A stretch of 31,028 bases of DNA from a virus, in the IMG/VR virus record IMGVR_UViG_3300034166_001631, positions 1-31,028 of that record, one strand, 5' to 3'. Position 1 is the stretch's first letter. Each line of letters starts with the position of its first letter. A program made the position numbers and the translations under genes. Positions 3,233-21,663 of the stretch are shown here, in pieces. The notes below the pieces were generated by a model. That model was not told where the DNA came from and searched no databases. It worked only from the letters and a program-made list of their open reading frames with translations.

Positions 3233-3756
3233 GCACCACCACCACCCGCCTGCCCCTGGCCACCGCTGATGAAGTGGCCGCCCAGGTGCTGGAGCTGCTG
3301 AAGCCTCATTGCGAGCGCATCCACATTGCCGGCAGCGTCCGCCGCCGGCGGCCCACCATTGGCGACCTGGAAATCGTCTGCATCCCCAAACCCTACGACC
3401 CATCCCCCTTGTTCTGCTCTGGCATCGCCACCGTGGTGAACCAGTGGGAGAAGGTGAAAGGCGAGCTGCCCTGCCGCTACACCCAGCGGGTCCTGCCCTG
3501 GCACGGGATGAAGCTCGATCTGTTCATGCCTGACCCGCGTGGCTACGGCCTCCAGCTGGCGATCAGAACCGGCTCGGCAGAATGGAGCCATCGCCGGCTG
3601 GCCGCGGCCTGGGTCCGTGCCGGCTTCACATCGAAGGACGGCCTGCTGCGCCGGAGCAGCGACGGGGCCATCTGCCCCACACCCACTGAAGAGGCCTTGT
3701 TCCGGATGATCGGGATACCTTGGGTCGATCCAACCGCACGGGAAGTCAGGCCATGA
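3229..3756 (+). CDS. DNA polymerase X-type (Pol beta-like) nucleotidyltransferase
   Basis: The protein has 175 residues. The Pol-beta-type core is visible: the G-S-x-R-R motif (GSVRRRRP, about residues 36-43) followed by GDLEIVCIP, whose D and E stand at the metal-binding positions, and a third acidic strand KLDLFMP (about residue 95). The end (YGLQLAIRTGSAEWSHRRLA) matches the conserved continuation in small phage and bacterial PolX-like proteins. It lacks the HhH and PHP domains of full-length PolX, so it is a minimal palm/fingers unit. It probably fills gaps or adds nucleotides during phage DNA replication or repair. It is coupled by ATGA overlaps to both neighbours. Confidence 0.75.
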   Translation: MSTTTTRLPLATADEVAAQVLELLKPHCERIHIAGSVRRRRPTIGDLEIVCIPKPYDPSPLFCSGIATVVNQWEKVKGELPCRYTQRVLPWHGMKLDLFMPDPRGYGLQLAIRTGSAEWSHRRLAAAWVRAGFTSKDGLLRRSSDGAICPTPTEEALFRMIGIPWVDPTAREVRP

Positions 3757-4016
3757 GCCTCTGGTTGCATAACGAGCTGCGCCGGCGGACCTTCTTCACG
3801 GCAGGTCGCCGCATGGGCACGGCGCGGGCCATGGGCCTGCTGTCGAAGGAGCTTGAGCAGATCGATCTGCTTGCTGAAACCTCAGCCCGGTGGCCAGATC
3901 CGCCCTTCGTGGTGATCGATGAGGTTGGCCCCCCGCACTCCATGACCACTGGCCCCTCCCCTCGCTTTGCGCAGCTCTCCTGCCTCCAGCGTCAGCGGTC
4001 CCGATGTGCCGGGTGA
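3753..4016 (+). CDS. Hypothetical small protein
   Basis: The protein has 87 residues. ATG 3753 overlaps the PolX-like stop (ATGA). The N-terminus is basic and helical (LRRRTFFTAGRRMGTARAMGLL) and could bind nucleic acid. The C-terminal 35 residues look disordered. It ends 25 bases inside the convergent minus-strand gene. No family is recognised. Confidence 0.5.
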   Translation: MSLWLHNELRRRTFFTAGRRMGTARAMGLLSKELEQIDLLAETSARWPDPPFVVIDEVGPPHSMTTGPSPRFAQLSCLQRQRSRCAG

Positions 4017-4879
4017 CTCGGGGGGAGGGAGTGAACTGGCCACAGTCCTCGATCAACTGGGTCCTGCTGGGCATCCATCAGCAGTGGATCAACAAAGCGC
4101 CGCCCGAAGAGCACGACCTGGATCCGTTTGCCATCCCAGACGATCTTTCGGCAGAAGTAGACGGCCACCATCCGCCACTGGTGTGAGGTGGCTCCCTCCC
4201 AGGCCCCCCAGCTGCTGAACGTCCTCCCCCAGCAGTCGAGCTCAGACGGCTCCCCAACCTGGTCCCAGACCAGCTGCATTCGGGCTGCCATCGTCGGATA
4301 GCCCATCCGTGGCAGGCCCGCTTCATGCAGCTCCCTCCTCAGCTTCAGGAAGTCCTCCAGTTTTTGCAGCCACTGCTGCTCCCGCTGCCGCTGCATAGGC
4401 GTGCGGTGCTCGCATAGCCGGACCAGCTCCGGCAGCCGCCGCTGCAAGGCCTCAAACACCGCCCGCTTGATGGCCGCGGCCTGCACCCAGCTCCGCTTGC
4501 CACTGGGCAGCCGGCAGACCGGGCAGCACCAGCGATGGGGCCTGGAACAGGCCTGTCGTCTTCGGGGTCGTTGCATCCTTCGCCCGCAGTGGCAAATCAT
4601 CAGGCCATCGAACAACTGCGGCGGACTGAATTGGTAGTTCGCTTGTATTAGCCGCTCTGCCTGTGCCAGATCAACTGGATCGGCAATGCGCCGCCCTGTC
4701 TTCTCCCACCAGTACCGGAGCTTCATGTCGGTCATGCCGAGCGCAGCTCTTGCTGCTGTCCAGTAGAAGCCAGATCGCAACAGGGCTTCCAGCCGTTCCA
4801 CTGGCCCGTATCCCTGGCCTTCAGCCAGATCGACATCACCGCAACTCAGGCGGAAAGTCATCGCAGCATCTCGCCGCAT
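3992..4879 (-). CDS. Zinc-ribbon protein resembling a serine recombinase C-terminal half, without the catalytic domain
   Basis: The protein has about 295 residues. The start is uncertain (ATG 4879, ATG 4861 or GTG 4897). About residue 96 a ribbon begins with CHCGRRM and continues with WCCPVC, followed by a helix (VQAAAIKRAVFEALQRRL) and later a helix-to-strand end (RMVAVYFCRKIVWDGKRIQVVLFGR). That order of zinc ribbon, linker helix and final V-x-[IV]-x-x-x-G strand is typical of the C-terminal half of large serine recombinases, but no resolvase-type domain with a catalytic serine precedes it. It stands alone on the minus strand between two plus-strand blocks. It may be a decayed recombinase, an accessory factor for the integrase at 20224, or an unrelated zinc-binding DNA-binding protein. 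Confidence 0.6.
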   Translation of the reverse strand: MRRDAAMTFRLSCGDVDLAEGQGYGPVERLEALLRSGFYWTAARAALGMTDMKLRYWWEKTGRRIADPVDLAQAERLIQANYQFSPPQLFDGLMICHCGRRMQRPRRRQACSRPHRWCCPVCRLPSGKRSWVQAAAIKRAVFEALQRRLPELVRLCEHRTPMQRQREQQWLQKLEDFLKLRRELHEAGLPRMGYPTMAARMQLVWDQVGEPSELDCWGRTFSSWGAWEGATSHQWRMVAVYFCRKIVWDGKRIQVVLFGRRFVDPLLMDAQQDPVDRGLWPVHSLPPSHPAHRDR

Positions 4880-4881
4880 CA

Positions 4882-5589
4882 ATGGCTGAGAACGCACCTA
4901 CTCCACTACGTTATGAGACAGATACGGCACCACAAGGCATGGTCAAGCGCCGCACCCCTCTGGCAGCAGTCACCGCCCCGACCGAGACCACGCTGGAGGC
5001 CCTGCTCCAAGACCCCAAAAACGCCCGGCGCCGCACCCAGCGCAGCACCGGGATGATCGAGCGCTCGCTGCGCGAGTTCGGCGCTGCCCGCTCCCTGGTG
5101 GTGGATGAAACCGGCATGATTCTCGCCGGCAATGGCACCGCCGAGGCAGCCGCCGCCATCGGCATCGAGCGGGTGCTGGTGGTCCCGGCCGATGGCCGCA
5201 CCCTGATTGCCGTGCAGCGGACGGATCTTTCCCCAGCACAAAAGGCGGAATATGGGGTGGCGGACAACCGCTCCAGTGACACCTCGGAGTTCAACGGCGC
5301 GGCGCTGGCGGCCCTGCTGGATGACCATGCGGAGCTGGACCTGAGCCCGTGGTTCACGGACGACGAGTTCAAGGCCCTGGTCGACGGGATCGATGAGCTC
5401 CCGGATCCACCAGCGCCCCCGGAGACCTCCCCGGGCCTGACGGTCCAGCTGACCTTCCCTGACCACCAGGCCCTGGTGGAGTTCCAGCAGCTGATGGGCC
5501 GCCTGGCGGAGGTGCTGCCGGAGGAGGAGAGCACCGAAGCCCGCCTGGCGCGCGCTGTCGAGGCCCTGCTGGCCCACCGGAACCGCTGA
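4882..5589 (+). CDS. ParB/Sulfiredoxin-like domain protein
   Basis: The protein has 235 residues from ATG 4882. ATG 4939 (MVKRRTPLAA) is an alternative start. The ParB-like core is clear: LLQDPKNARRRT, then IERSLREFGAARSLVVDETG, the box ILAGNGTAEAAAAIG in the GxRR/NG position, and VQRTDLSPAQKAEYGVADNR. Phage proteins of this type sit just upstream of terminase genes and often near DNA methyltransferases, and they may act as nucleases or DNA-binding packaging factors. The C-terminal part (from about residue 165) is acidic and helical. The gene is divergent from 4879 with almost no spacer, so its promoter would lie in the other gene. Confidence 0.75.
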   Translation: MAENAPTPLRYETDTAPQGMVKRRTPLAAVTAPTETTLEALLQDPKNARRRTQRSTGMIERSLREFGAARSLVVDETGMILAGNGTAEAAAAIGIERVLVVPADGRTLIAVQRTDLSPAQKAEYGVADNRSSDTSEFNGAALAALLDDHAELDLSPWFTDDEFKALVDGIDELPDPPAPPETSPGLTVQLTFPDHQALVEFQQLMGRLAEVLPEEESTEARLARAVEALLAHRNR

Positions 5590-8969: not shown

Positions 8970-9649
8970 AAGAACGACCGATCCTGTTCTCGGCGCCAAT
9001 GGTCCGGGCCATCCTGAGCGGCAGCAAAACCCAGACAAGGCGGGTGGTAAAACCGCAGCCAGCTGGCAGCTTTTTGGGGCTGATAGAGAGGCCAATCCGA
9101 AGCAGCAAAGACCCGCCTGTGCTTCGAGCGTGGTTCCAAGCCGGCGCAAAGGAGCAAAGCTCGAGGGAGATCACCTGCCCCTACGGATCCCCAGGGGACA
9201 GGCTCTGGGTGCGGGAGACGTGGGCCGTTCAGCATGAATACGATGCTGCTGCCCCTTCAGAAATTGGCGCCAGCGCTCGGTGGCACTACGCAGCCACCGA
9301 AGATCTGGGCGGGCTTCGCAAGCGGTCATCGATCTTCCTGCCTCGGCGTGGGAGCCGGATCCTGCTGGAAATCACCGACGTTCGAGTGCAGCGCCTGCAG
9401 GAGATCAGCGAGGACAACGCCAGGTCCGAGGGCCTTTCCACGGTCACAAAGGACGGATCCCTCTGGAAGTGGGGCATCCCAGACGCCGATGGCCTGCCGG
9501 GGACGGATGACGATGGCTGCCCCTGGCGCGACTGGGAGGGCCGCCCGGGGGATGCCTTCCGCCGCCTCTGGGAGTCCATAAACGGTTCCGGAACCTGGGA
9601 TCTCAACCCGTGGGTGTGGGCGGTCAGCTTCAGGAGGCTGCAGCCATGA
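8966..9649 (+). CDS. ASCH-like phage protein
   Basis: The protein has 227 residues. The start MKERPILFSAPMVRAILSG followed by SKTQTRRVVKPQ is the hallmark beginning of phage ASCH/PUA-like proteins, and YGSPGDRLWVRETW followed later by LLEITDVRVQRLQEIS fits the rest of the fold. Proteins of this group are thought to bind RNA or modified nucleosides, and the phage role is not known. The C-terminus (DLNPWVWAVSFRRLQ) is the usual final strand. ATGA overlaps join it to both neighbours. Confidence 0.75.
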   Translation: MKERPILFSAPMVRAILSGSKTQTRRVVKPQPAGSFLGLIERPIRSSKDPPVLRAWFQAGAKEQSSREITCPYGSPGDRLWVRETWAVQHEYDAAAPSEIGASARWHYAATEDLGGLRKRSSIFLPRRGSRILLEITDVRVQRLQEISEDNARSEGLSTVTKDGSLWKWGIPDADGLPGTDDDGCPWRDWEGRPGDAFRRLWESINGSGTWDLNPWVWAVSFRRLQP

Positions 9650-9867
9650 CCCTTCCCAACTTCGACCACGCCGAGGAAGGCGATCGCGAGTAGGCCTTTG
9701 CCGGTGGCTGCTGGCGGGAGTGGATCCCCTGCGGCCCTGGCGGGGACTGGGTCCCGTCAGCACCACCGCCGGCCACCGCCCGCCGCTTCAACTACAGAGC
9801 ATGGGTTCTTGGCCATGTCAACAAGATCAGGGCTGCCCAGGGGCGGTCGCCAGTTGCAACCCGCTGA
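9646..9867 (+). pseudogene. Small reading frame interrupted by an in-frame amber codon
   Basis: An ATG overlapping the previous stop (ATGA) opens a frame that meets TAG at 9691-9693 after 15 codons. The same frame then stays open for 57 codons to TGA at 9865-9867 and encodes a protein-like sequence (GGCWREWIPCGPGGDWVP, FNYRAWVLGHVNKIRAAQGR). No ATG, GTG or TTG lies in frame after the TAG, so the distal part cannot be started on its own. Either a sense codon (for example CAG) mutated to TAG, or the amber is read through. Confidence 0.5.
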
Positions 9868-9960
9868 CCCATGACGGCGAGAACTGTCAGGCCCGCTACT
9901 TGTGCGTTACAGTATGGGCATTGGGGGATTCGCCCCAGCCCGTCCCATCGCTCCCCAGCA

Positions 9961-10260
9961 ATGACCACCCCCACCCCCGACATCGAAGTTCTTTGTTCTC
10001 GCTATTGCAACAAAGCAACGTTTTGTGGCCTAACCGAAAAAGGCAAAAAAGCAATCAAGGAGGCCAAGTCAGTGTTTGATTTTGTTTTATACGTTGGCCC
10101 TAGTTCGAGATATGGTTTAACCCCGCACGATATTGTTGTTGGCAAGCATTACGAAGCTGAGATTTGGAACTGGCTTCAAGCCAGAGCTTGCGTAAGAGGG
10201 CCACAGCTTGAGTATTGCTACGACGAAGACGGCAAGCCTCTTACGGCCTTTGCCACCTGA
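9961..10260 (+). CDS. Hypothetical protein, AT-richer than its neighbours
   Basis: The protein has 99 residues. ATG 9961 is preferred over the upstream ATG 9871, whose extra 30 residues look non-coding. The region 9980-10190 is clearly lower in GC than its surroundings, suggesting a separate origin. An N-terminal C-x3-C-x5-C cluster (residues 12-22) and a conserved-looking core (VFDFVLYVGPSSRYGLTPHD) are seen. The leader TCCCATCGCTCCCCAGC recurs nearly unchanged upstream of the gene at 10328. No family is recognised. Confidence 0.55.
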   Translation: MTTPTPDIEVLCSRYCNKATFCGLTEKGKKAIKEAKSVFDFVLYVGPSSRYGLTPHDIVVGKHYEAEIWNWLQARACVRGPQLEYCYDEDGKPLTAFAT

Positions 10261-10327
10261 CCCTTACGGCCCGCCTAAGCCCACCAGGCACCCTTCCCAC
10301 CGCTCCCCAGCCATCCCGTTGCCTCTG

Positions 10328-10540
10328 ATGCCTGACCCCACCAACCCCGCCATAACAACCGAATACGGCTACATCCGCTGGCGCAGCACCCTGACCGGCA
10401 AAGAAGGCGGAGGCAATGTGCCTGTTGCCAATCCTTCTAACGAAGTAGCACTGAAGAATGCTCAGTATCCTGAATTAAATCACTGGTCTGTGCCTGTGGC
10501 GGTCTGCTTGCCCCCCATGCGGGAGATTGTCGATGCCTGA
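10328..10540 (+). CDS. Hypothetical small protein, first of three with identical starts
   Basis: The protein has 70 residues and begins MPDPTNPAITTEYGYIRWRS. The sequence ATGCCTGACCCCA also starts the next two genes. Its own last eight bases are the start of the second gene (ATGCCTGA). The composition is polar with a beta-like core. There is no clear ribosome-binding site. Function unknown. Confidence 0.5.
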   Translation: MPDPTNPAITTEYGYIRWRSTLTGKEGGGNVPVANPSNEVALKNAQYPELNHWSVPVAVCLPPMREIVDA

Positions 10541-10706
10541 CCCCATCAGTGCTGAACTGAAAACGGCTCTGAATGCCGCCCACTTTGCTTTATTGGAAGC
10601 CGCAGATCACATCCGAAGGCGTGAAAGCTGGAGCCCTGCTTACCGCCGCGCATCGAATGCCAGTGATGTTGCACAGCAAGCTCTAATCAAGCAGGCCAAT
10701 GCCTGA
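10533..10706 (+). CDS. Hypothetical small helical protein, second of three with identical starts
   Basis: The protein has 57 residues (MPDPISAELKTALNAAHFAL...). It is helical, Ala-rich and basic in the middle (DHIRRRESWSPAYRRASNA). It overlaps the previous gene by eight bases and the next by eight bases, both through ATGCCTGA. The overlaps on both sides argue that this short frame is translated. Confidence 0.5.
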   Translation: MPDPISAELKTALNAAHFALLEAADHIRRRESWSPAYRRASNASDVAQQALIKQANA

Positions 10707-10908
10707 CCCCACCAAATGGGCCCGTTACCGAGCCCGGCTGGTCGGCAACCTTCCCCCGGTGCCGCTGTGCCCCACGTGCGGCCGAAAGATCCGTGGTGCG
10801 GGCCGTGATGGCCTCTGCTCCCGTTGCTGGGCTGTCACGCCAGCCGGCCGGGAAGACCTCAGGCAGCGAGTTGCTCGCTCTCGTCGGCGAGCTGCAGGGG
10901 CGAGCTGA
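10699..10908 (+). CDS. Small zinc-ribbon protein, third of three with identical starts
   Basis: The protein has 69 residues. Two pairs, CPTCGRK and CSRCW, spaced as in a zinc ribbon (C-x2-C, about 14 residues, C-x2-C), are followed by a basic tail (RQRVARSRRRAAG). It probably binds nucleic acid. Its first 17 bases match those of the gene at 10328. It ends 50 bases inside the convergent minus-strand gene. Confidence 0.6.
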   Translation: MPDPTKWARYRARLVGNLPPVPLCPTCGRKIRGAGRDGLCSRCWAVTPAGREDLRQRVARSRRRAAGAS

Positions 10909-11341
10909 CCAGTTTCCATCGCTTTGCCAGCAGCGGCCGGTGGCCAGCTAGAAAGTTGCGCACCGTGTTGAACGGGATCCCCTTGGCTGAAGCGAAGGCC
11001 CGCTCCTGGCCGACGATGATCTCCTGCGCCCGCCCACCCACTTGATCCCTCAGCCGCCACCTGGGCGCCTCGAGGTCGTTGGGCTGGTCATCGGCGGAGC
11101 GCTTCACCCACCAGATCCAGGTGCCCCCCCCGTTGCCCTGGGTCACCCGCCGCAGCAGGCCCAGGGCCGCCAGCTTCAAGATGTTGCGGTTCAAGCTGTC
11201 TCGATCGGTGCCCAGCTGCTCCGCCAGATCGCTCAGGCTGCACCACCACCCTGGCACCAGCTGCTCGATCTGCACCAGCGTGATCACCAGCTCGGCGCGC
11301 AGCTCGCGCCGCAGCTGCGCCAGGTAGGCGGGCTGGATCAC
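10859..11341 (-). CDS. Winged-helix DNA-binding protein
   Basis: The protein has 160 residues from a GTG that overlaps the methyltransferase stop (GTGA). A MarR/ArsR-like winged helix is visible at about residues 10-70: VITLVQIEQLVPGWWCSLSD, then LAEQLGTDRDSLNRNILKLA for the recognition region, and ALGLLRRV with TWIWWVK as wing. The C-terminal part has a second short HTH-like segment (AFASAKGIPFNTVRNFLAG). It is made with the methyltransferase and may control it or the phage. Confidence 0.65.
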   Translation of the reverse strand: MIQPAYLAQLRRELRAELVITLVQIEQLVPGWWCSLSDLAEQLGTDRDSLNRNILKLAALGLLRRVTQGNGGGTWIWWVKRSADDQPNDLEAPRWRLRDQVGGRAQEIIVGQERAFASAKGIPFNTVRNFLAGHRPLLAKRWKLVSSPLQLADESEQLAA

Positions 11342-13139: not shown

Positions 13140-14126
13140 CTACGCGGCCAGCGGAAACAGGAGCAGCTGTTGCTCGATCTCTATCTCGGTTACCAGCAGC
13201 TCCACCTGGCCCCCGCCGTGCTGGTGATCGGCGGCCATCAGGTGCTGCGCCATCGCCAGCGCTCGCTCCCACAGCCGTTCGGCGGCCAACCGGGTGATCC
13301 CCATCGCCAGGCCGGCCTCCTGGCAGGTGTGCCCGGCCAGCCGGCGCTCCATGATCTCCCGCAGATCGGGCCAGGGTTCAAGCGCCTCCAGCACTTCGGC
13401 ACGCTCTGTGGTCGTGGTGTCCGCTGTTGTCGTTGGATCCGCCACGGTGGTGATATAGGCATCACCCTCGCCATCGTTCATCAGGGAATCGAGCGAAACC
13501 ACCTGCCGCACAGCGGCCGCCTGCCGCAGGATCCGCAGGTCAGCAGCGCTGATCTGCATCCCCTCCATTGCCTCCTGATCCGTCGGTGAGCGGCCCTCAC
13601 GGGCTGTGAAGGCCTCCACCCATTGCCGCAGCTGGTGCATCTTCGATGCCCGCTTCACTGGGAGTCGAATCGATCCGGAGGTGTGCACCAGCCGGGTCAT
13701 CGACTGCCGGATCCACGGAACCGCATAGGTCGCGAAAGTGTTGCCCAGCGAGGGGTCGAATTTCTCCGCCGCCCTGGTGAGCCCGATCGCACCCTCCTGG
13801 ATCAGGTCCTGCGGCTCCAGGGCCACCACCGAGGACACCGAGAACGAGCGGGCCTGTGTTGCCACCAGCAGCATGTTGCGGGCCACCATCTGCTCACGTG
13901 CCCGCTTGCCGGCTCGCTGCACACCAGGCGGGGCCTTCTCTGGCGTCGGATCCCAGTCCAGCCACCTCCGGATGGCCCGACCCAGTAGCAGCTGCTCCTC
14001 CCTGGTGGGGATGGGCAGCCGCGCATACGCACCGAGCAGCGAATCGAGCGGGGAGCCCAACGGACTAGGGCTGATGTTCGGCCCCAGCCTATGGCGTGCA
14101 ACGTCGTTGGCCAGTGATATTGCCAA
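13140..14126 (-). CDS. Sigma-70 family RNA polymerase sigma factor
   Basis: The protein has 328 residues from TTG 14126, with an AAGGTAGG site nine bases upstream. Region 1.2 is seen at about 28-50 (LDSLLGAYARLPIPTREEQL). Region 2 runs from about 80-152, with LEPQDLIQEGAIGLTRAAEK and FDPSLGNTFATYAVPWIRQ for core binding and -10 melting. Region 3 follows (IRLPVK, then EGRSPTDQEAMEG), and region 4 at about 250-300 (LREIMERRLAG with a degenerate HTH). The layout matches group 2/3 cyanobacterial sigma factors. In this setting it probably redirects host RNA polymerase to phage promoters. It ends with TAG, rare in this window. Confidence 0.88.
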   Translation of the reverse strand: MAISLANDVARHRLGPNISPSPLGSPLDSLLGAYARLPIPTREEQLLLGRAIRRWLDWDPTPEKAPPGVQRAGKRAREQMVARNMLLVATQARSFSVSSVVALEPQDLIQEGAIGLTRAAEKFDPSLGNTFATYAVPWIRQSMTRLVHTSGSIRLPVKRASKMHQLRQWVEAFTAREGRSPTDQEAMEGMQISAADLRILRQAAAVRQVVSLDSLMNDGEGDAYITTVADPTTTADTTTTERAEVLEALEPWPDLREIMERRLAGHTCQEAGLAMGITRLAAERLWERALAMAQHLMAADHQHGGGQVELLVTEIEIEQQLLLFPLAA

Positions 14127-20223: not shown

Positions 20224-21663
20224 ATGAGCACGGCTCAGGGCAGGCATGGAAGGCCGGCGGCACTGAAACCCCTTGCAGCGCAAGGCAGCGCTTATGAGAC
20301 GGTATCGAAGGAAAACGTCGTCAAAGCGCTAAGGTCCCAAACCACTGCACCGCAGCCTATGCGCCTTGGCTATGCCCGCGTATCGAAGGAGGAGCAGGCC
20401 GACTCCCTGCCAGCTCAGGTGGCCAGGCTTCGGGCGGCCGGCTGCGATCGAATTGTCGAGGAGATGGAGAGCGGCAAGGTCGACAGCCGCCCAGGCCTGG
20501 CGGAGGTGATCCTTGAGGTTCGTTCTGGCCGCGTGGCCGAGCTGGTGATCACCAGGGCCGATCGGCTGGGCCGAAACGCAGCCTTTGCCGATGAGCTGCT
20601 GGCGCTGTGCGGGATCCAGGGGGTCAAGGTCACGGCGATCGACGGCGGCACCATCGAGGCGGCATCACCTCAAGGATTCATGCAAGCCCGGATCCTCACC
20701 ACCATGGCGGAGGTGGAGTCGCGGATGTTGAGCCTGCGGCTGCGGAAGCAGTTCGAGCAGTACCGCTCCCAGGGCCGCCATCTGCGGCGCCGGAAACCGT
20801 TTGGGTATCGAGGGGGTGCCAACCACAAATTGGAGCCCCACCCGGAGCACTGGCCCCAGGCGTTGAAGGTGCTGGAGCGCCTGCGGGAGCTGGGGAGCTT
20901 CTCCGCGGTGATGCGGGATCTGCCGAGCTGGTGCAGCTGGACCCCGGCGACCCCCAATTTGATGGCGTGGTTCTACAACCCCTGCATAAGGGGGCACGTC
21001 GGCCACCTGCTGCAGAAAGGCAGCGGGAAGAGTTGGGGCCAGCGGTGGGGAGAGATTCACTACGACCAGCATCCGCCGCTGATCGGTGAGGGGGATTGGC
21101 AGGAACTGGCGATGTACCTGAGGCGGCCCAGCAATACCTTTCTGGGTCGAGGCCGTGAAGCTCGCCATGGGCTGACCGGTTTGCTGAGCTGCGCTGCGTG
21201 CGGCCACAGCTTGCGACGCAACATTTCGGGCAATACGGCATGGTGGCGTTGCCGTCACCGGTTGTGCGAGGAGAAAGGCGCCATCCGGGAACCTGATGCC
21301 ATGCCTGTGGCGGTGGCGGCGTGCGTGGCTGCTGCAGATCGCTTGGCGGCAGCGTATGCCATGCCCGCCGACGAGGATCCGGCGGTGGCGGCAAAGCGGC
21401 GGGATCTGGAGCAGCTAGAGGGGCTGGCCAGACGTAACCCGGCTATTTCCTCAGCTTGCGTTGAACTTCGCAAGGAGATTGACAGCCTGGTGCAAAGGCC
21501 GAGGGTGGCGCCTGAACTGGCTGGGTATGTCGAACGGATCAGCGACCCTGAGTTTTTTTCAGGTGCGACACCGCAGGAGCAGCGGGCGCTGTTTGCGGCA
21601 GTCCTTGAGACCCTGGCGGTGGGTCCAACGGGGGAAGTTCGCGCTCAGCCGCGTAGCTGGTAA
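20224..21663 (+). CDS. Large serine recombinase (phage integrase)
   Basis: The protein has 479 residues from ATG 20224. The catalytic domain begins only at ATG 20359 (residue 46, MRLGYARVSKEEQADSLPAQ), which may be the true start. S54 in YARVS is the nucleophile, and VITRADRLGRNAAFADELL and the MQARILTTMAEVESRMLSLR helix complete the domain. Then come a recombinase domain (RRRKPFGYRGG, with FYNPCIRGHVGHLL) and a zinc ribbon with C323, C326, C343 and C348, then a coiled coil. It would insert and, with a directionality factor, excise the element. No tRNA or clear att repeat lies nearby. Confidence 0.9.
   Translation: MSTAQGRHGRPAALKPLAAQGSAYETVSKENVVKALRSQTTAPQPMRLGYARVSKEEQADSLPAQVARLRAAGCDRIVEEMESGKVDSRPGLAEVILEVRSGRVAELVITRADRLGRNAAFADELLALCGIQGVKVTAIDGGTIEAASPQGFMQARILTTMAEVESRMLSLRLRKQFEQYRSQGRHLRRRKPFGYRGGANHKLEPHPEHWPQALKVLERLRELGSFSAVMRDLPSWCSWTPATPNLMAWFYNPCIRGHVGHLLQKGSGKSWGQRWGEIHYDQHPPLIGEGDWQELAMYLRRPSNTFLGRGREARHGLTGLLSCAACGHSLRRNISGNTAWWRCRHRLCEEKGAIREPDAMPVAVAACVAAADRLAAAYAMPADEDPAVAAKRRDLEQLEGLARRNPAISSACVELRKEIDSLVQRPRVAPELAGYVERISDPEFFSGATPQEQRALFAAVLETLAVGPTGEVRAQPRSW

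Follow-up and report, generated by a model that had tools for sequence, protein, structure and literature searches.

A block of 12–13 nt, ATGCCTGACCCC(A), starts three consecutive small genes at positions 10328, 10533 and 10699 of the window—the whole stretch of viral DNA analysed here, an IMG/VR record of 31,028 nucleotides—and carries, at both junctions inside the chain, the end of the gene upstream. We consider it probable that this block serves a group of uncultivated cyanophages as a standard stop/start connector in their small-gene operons, and that it marks the sites where modules are exchanged. The dual use as stop and start, the exact recurrence, the switch of similarity at the block and the presence or absence of a whole gene can be read off the DNA compared, and the pattern of exchange at the block is well supported.

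A pattern search of the window finds ATGCCTGACCCC exactly at these three positions, on the + strand. The first-pass annotation had described a 13-base start common to the three genes, and its description holds: ATGCCTGACCCCA is exact at all three starts, copies 1 and 3 share the 17 identical bases that it reported (13 for copies 1 and 2), each gene ends inside the next start at both internal junctions (g1 in that of g2, g2 in that of g3), and the three proteins are unrelated beyond MPDP. No gene ends at block 1 itself, which is preceded by 18 open codons only. Both internal junctions are 8-nt stop/start overlaps (ATGCCTGA), read as NAT GCC TGA at the end of the upstream gene and as ATG CCT GAC CCC at the start of the next. 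When one mismatch is allowed the window holds four matches to ATGCCTGACCCC, whereas 100 shuffles average 0.46 and never reach four, and the reversed control pattern has none; the fourth match, at 3526 (one mismatch), falls within a gene that encodes a DNA polymerase beta thumb domain and is not a start. The protein of g3 resembles a zinc ribbon (DZR_2, E 1.6e-4, 21.9 bits, under Pfam's cut-off of 27), for g1 and g2 Pfam yields nothing at E<=1 and PHROG only matches of E 0.59 and 0.79, and Rfam gives nothing at gathering score on the window.

Table 1. Features of the three-gene chain and of the DNA before it (window coordinates)
Feature	Position	Strand	Remark
Gene before the chain	9961..10260	+	99 aa, function unknown
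Spacer resembling the second connector type (TGACCC..CGGCCCGCC..)	10261..10314	+	common to the window and L004
21 nt matching the 3' end of gene X, including its TGA	10315..10335	+	X present in L004/L005
Block copy 1, ATGCCTGACCCCA	10328..10340	+	start of g1; seemingly what survives of a lost gene's stop region
Block copy 2	10533..10545	+	stop of g1 and start of g2, 8-nt overlap
Block copy 3	10699..10711	+	end of g2, beginning of g3; bases 10699-10715 (17 nt) the same as in copy 1
g1	10328..10540	+	70 aa, function unknown
g2	10533..10706	+	57 aa, function unknown
g3	10699..10908	+	69 aa, zinc-ribbon-like

The block is not peculiar to this locus. Protein similarity brought in 21 loci for g3, five for g1 and five for g2 (three of the latter, L032-L034, being parts of a longer low-GC protein that we excluded from the junction comparisons), and in these loci the block begins many other small genes. 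The related loci contain 64 distinct junctions—distinct by sequence and not by contig, the loci of a same contig having been fetched repeatedly—and 52 of them have an open frame of at least 40 codons on both sides, a count that includes the gene-internal match W 3526 (W for the window), which is no true junction. By our reading of the junction table the block starts about 16 unrelated families in this phage group, with the limit that single-linkage clusters may merge families, e.g. zinc-ribbon proteins. The block thus recurs in relatives before unrelated small genes, as the first-pass annotation had proposed to verify, and the possibility that it had left standing, of three genes unique to this locus by chance, is ruled out. 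As to the samples, L179, L186 and L187, which are not gene chains, were left out of the cluster table and of the survey of TGACCCC connectors, the junction-pair and codon/information comparisons take in the loci L178, L181 and L196 of other phages, and the viral background set, itself selected for the 14-mer, is informative only in its remainder.

Two blocks separated by about 153-214 bases were found in 21 viral contigs, read as 15 cyanophage gene chains (some near-duplicates), three other chains and three non-gene repeats. With a wider spacing six contigs came out: two chains of other phages, two non-chains and two cyanophage chains, of which one had been detected before. In 84,980 bacterial and archaeal genomes the two-block pattern also occurs in 21 contigs; L201 alone is a chain of this kind, the remaining 20 being by appearance ordinary repeats or unrelated cases. 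L201 is an 8-kb contig of a Synechococcaceae MAG where four block-started genes follow each other (one block ending CCCT), the last being a g3 relative. Because of this related chain, on that one contig, picocyanobacteria are likely hosts, and those of the phage group are probably freshwater picocyanobacteria. A contig of Limnohabitans planktonicus (L199) carries four block copies in near-identical units 171 bases apart.

The window record encodes a terminase, a portal, a sigma factor and a serine recombinase, as well as a Mu F-like protein just below Pfam's cut-off. Its terminase has 478 matches in isolate records, all below 60% identity; the best ten of these 478 belong to Nodularia and Cylindrospermopsis phages, at 29-31%. 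In the 'phages' collection no match was found to the DNA of window positions 9600-11000 at E<=1e-5, nor to the g3 relative of L250 or the RLCGG protein at E<=0.01. As a relative of the window terminase is present in only 6 of 31 records, which may be fragments, the connector does not appear tied to that terminase. The sigma factor (13140-14126, - strand) is a phage-encoded one of sigma-70 type (PHROG 351, E 5.5e-39).

What is kept at the junctions is more than the peptide. Aspartate is encoded by GAC in 46 of the 49 family-pair junctions, against 49% GAC in the long ORFs of these loci, the 49 coming from loci partly fetched by the block itself. Because some loci had been fetched with the block pattern, the count was redone on those found by protein similarity: 31 of 34 [AGT]TGCCTGA overlaps have GAC and 26 of 34 continue CCCC. 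The second codon, CCT, represents 14% of proline codons and is required by the overlapping TGA. Over the 49 junctions information is near background outside about -2..+14, with at most 0.39 bits per position from -24 to -3. When the pair pattern was searched with GAT for GAC, seven contigs came out, all read as within-protein repeats, and none of the seven (0/7) holds a gene chain. The GAC excess and this control lead us to reject conservation of MPDP at the peptide level.

The same observations bear on host codon use, which, as sole cause of the repeat, would have refuted the first-pass annotation. The 12-mer does occur singly in host-family genomes, and about 8 of 29 loci there were read as solitary stop/start overlaps, so that the host family has such overlaps too. 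But 200 other genomes of this family contain 32 matches (tallied from the table) against 26 for the reversed control, no series of blocks was seen in the loci examined, and the host MAG has only three matches, all on the phage contig. With GAC at 31/34 instead of 49% and a GAT control devoid of chains, host sequence is no explanation, and host codon use or chance is scarcely credible as the origin of the block.

The comparison of loci indicates where similarity stops. Among 72 distinct junction sequences, 55 pairs are alike downstream only and 17 upstream only. The downstream-alike pairs have 0-3 identical bases directly 5' of the ATG in 54 cases out of 55, the last pair having 10; in the 17 upstream-alike pairs identity extends 10-17 nt from the ATG. 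After a gapped re-check 53/55 and 15/17 remain without clear similarity on the differing side; the pairs dropped are W/L017 and L250/L255, which have diverged relatives upstream, and L004/L005 and L182/L183, which differ by indels. These pairs are not independent, since nine close g3 relatives account for 34 of the 55. Neighbouring genes thus differ across the block, in keeping with the suggestion that they are swapped at this point. By single-linkage clustering, in which some members are short ORFs, 14 upstream clusters precede the g3 cluster and the RLCGG cluster precedes five; in none of the 59 rows of the table does the g3 cluster itself stand upstream of a block. Between g3 and L011 the differences at the three codon positions number 7, 4 and 27.

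A whole gene can be present or absent between block copies. In L250 the RLCGG gene directly precedes a g3 relative; in L201 the same two genes have one extra gene between them, and the alignment of both loci displays a 196-bp insertion or deletion, a whole gene between block copies. At this place L195 has a different, short and possibly frameshifted ORF between RLCGG and the g3-relative position. In L030/L031 homologs of g2 (65-68%) lead, through the block, into a diverged g3 relative. The end of the RLCGG gene, in 10 loci, is an exact block in five, a near variant in two and another end in three. Joints also occur away from the block: in L014, L015 and L019-L023 (two distinct sequences) the 3' part of g3 is joined in-gene to other coding DNA. 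The idea of a start block by which cargo genes are added stands for its recurrence and for its differing neighbours; it has to be amended in that the block closes a gene (GCC TGA CCCC) just as much as it opens one.

We also considered that the small genes could be very diverged tandem duplicates having kept only their start. The two tandem genes of L181 indeed cluster together, with an upstream context 80% similar, but the 23 cassette proteins compared, some of them mutually related, have M-P-D-P as their only invariant columns, homologs of g1 and RLCGG exist without a block at their start, and most of the pairs picked out cease to be alike at the block edges. Such a shared descent is very improbable. 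A function scan of these 23 proteins, out of 32 listed, gave with Pfam three weak double zinc ribbons, one portal (Phage_portal_3), one TiaS zinc ribbon and one laminin-EGF, with PHROGs some portal or minor-head matches and four families without a functional name (phrog_7644 at 3.9e-18), and with PADLOC one weak hit. The cassette ORF L007:586-984 includes a portal-like stretch and is apparently a chimera.

In the window itself, the first block might be the trace of such an event. The match between the window and L004 runs up to the start of gene X and resumes in the last 21 nt of X, whose last codons and stop in L004 are CCC GTT GCC TCT GAT GCC TGA; the remainder of X is absent from the window. 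This suggests that block 1 represents the last codons and stop of a deleted X; that X was lost and its end block kept would be the simplest reading of the alignment, and the order in the window is best read as an X remnant followed by g1, g2 and g3. The g1 homologs of L025-L029 align from residue 5, 9 or 11 and have their own ATG near there, which in four of the five comes after a TGACCCC-type spacer. In the window g1 has ATA at codon 9, so the ATG of the block is now the likely start. In L017, too, such a gene end, with the variant ATGACTGACCCC, precedes a g2 relative.

A second connector exists in the same phages, made of a stop, GGCCCGCCGG with the rest of a GC hairpin, and then an ATG. We count 40 distinct sites for GGCCCGCCGG, 27 of which stand between an open frame and a following ORF; in 26 of these 27 the ATG comes 45-57 bases further on, and in one 65. 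Examples are found at L201:2105, L189:9032, L192:7522 and others, and in L253 the gene end of L185 is followed by the hairpin spacer. The 25-base form is present in 1 of 201 host-family genomes. Both connectors often contain TGACCCC, so that the block can be viewed as a usual stop context to which ATGCC has been added.

The block could also be kept for translation only, because it is good for termination-reinitiation or binds a regulator, random exchange at gene borders being merely tolerated. The open frames of at least 40 codons on both sides at 52 of the 64 junctions (W 3526 counted, though no junction) agree with this, as do the Shine-Dalgarno-like motifs, found before only 15 of 52 junctions against a background of 16%; such a scarcity is expected if initiation depends on coupling. 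An unrelated phage, L127, has the same chained starts: in this locus of GC 0.68 three successive genes begin with ATGCCTGACCCCACC. The ORFs of the 5.7-kb L127 locus have no tblastn hit to the group at E<=1e-6, and the window terminase was not found in its 58-kb record, which encodes an ERF gene. This case points to a general benefit of the sequence and makes inheritance from a single source less likely, and the three chained blocks of L127 suggest convergence. (The three chained MPDPT starts lie at L127:1911-2935, - strand.) On the other hand, some blocks have a start that seems idle—at L006:4500 the block opens an ORF of no more than 15 codons, and at L253:917 its ORF runs in another frame into the next gene—and others a stop that is unused (g1 of the window, and two blocks in L191). 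Besides, the wobble base of the Asp codon and the following codon are nearly fixed, which neither the overlap nor the peptide needs. We regard a purely translational role as rather unlikely.

For the preferred reading, a connector that marks exchange sites, a mechanism can be proposed. Because one stretch of 12-13 nt carries both the stop and the start signal, a gene body between two copies can enter, leave or give way to another while its neighbours stay intact. The block ends the upstream gene as NAT GCC TGA and starts the next as ATG CCT GAC CCC, and the 8-nt overlap would couple their translation by termination-reinitiation. Genes might be exchanged when block copies anneal or slip on one another, with help from ERF/RecT-type recombinases and from the homology of neighbouring genes. 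An ERF or RecT exceeds the family cut-off in 8 of the 24 records scanned and is detected at E<=1e-3 in 12; the 24 include two phages from outside the group, G231 and G251, the former among the eight. The records concerned include G003, G005 and G009, whose terminases, 91-95% identical to that of the window, are the three closest. No ERF or RecT was found in the window record, possibly a fragment, which is one of the 12 records out of 24 negative at E<=1e-3. The large serine recombinase of the window (20224-21663, + strand; PHROG 95) was considered as an agent, and a 13-nt asymmetric block seems too short as a site for such an enzyme; a second gene (3992-4897, - strand) has a weak match to the same PHROG 95. 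According to PMC3945230, the minimal pairing lengths are 23-27 for Red-beta and 31-34 for RecA. With 12-17 nt the repeats fall short of these lengths and must therefore be assisted, by selection or by homology between neighbouring genes. Random recombination followed by selection for intact genes would also be expected to leave sharp breaks at gene borders. A bolder proposal, that the block and its companion hairpin spacer form an integrase-free array of gene cassettes, in which annealing recombinases add, drop or swap genes on the 12-17-nt repeats with frames intact, appears to us possible but tentative, on the doubtful side.

Integron gene cassettes are small genes in series between repeated short sequences. 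The repeat described here differs from them as an overlapping coding sequence without spacer; among the ten window proteins scanned a serine recombinase was found and no IntI-type integrase, and neither the block junctions nor these ten proteins gave evidence of integron-like cassettes. A literature search, with most subscription journals outside its coverage, gave no report of the block element among the matches listed; the letters of the block retrieved no phage paper by title among those listed for them, and the terms sought are absent from a paper on a freshwater cyanosiphovirus (PMC6157547).

The Start-Associated Sequences (SAS/ESAS) of Cluster K mycobacteriophages and Cluster EF Microbacterium phages come closer (PMC3203893, PMC7302621). 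There, SAS is presented as an asymmetric 13-bp repeat that accompanies gene starts of different families within the non-structural region, is seldom found outside the phage group and is rare in the host; it typically lies 3-7 bp upstream of the start, in ribosome-binding position, with AGGAG, and some copies hold a stop. The passages on SAS in these two papers make no claim of gene swapping there. Our block shares with SAS its many copies at genes of different families and its rarity in the host; it differs in that it begins at the start codon, has no Shine-Dalgarno core and holds the stop of the neighbour. As it starts at the start codon, it is not an SAS in ribosome-binding position with AGGAG.

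Lambdoid phages have short conserved boundary sequences, as in the nin region and in HK620. For these phages a model, outlined in PMC3233612 and PMC3029335, proposes that a short sequence shared by gene borders targets recombination, and PMC3233612 treats as an open question whether phage mosaicism is targeted to boundary sequences or random and followed by selection. With a boundary that is exact, serial, defined at the codon level and represented by many natural variants, both models become directly comparable, and variable small-gene operons can be located simply by looking for the block in cyanophage data. Like the lambdoid boundary sequences, it is a short sequence common to the borders of non-homologous neighbouring genes, at which the similarity between relatives switches. 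It differs from them, as far as a comparison by description goes, in spanning overlapping stop and start codons, and in being one 12-13-mer repeated serially within an operon and across families. Boundary sequences as such are known; what is new here is a boundary sequence that is also a stop/start overlap.
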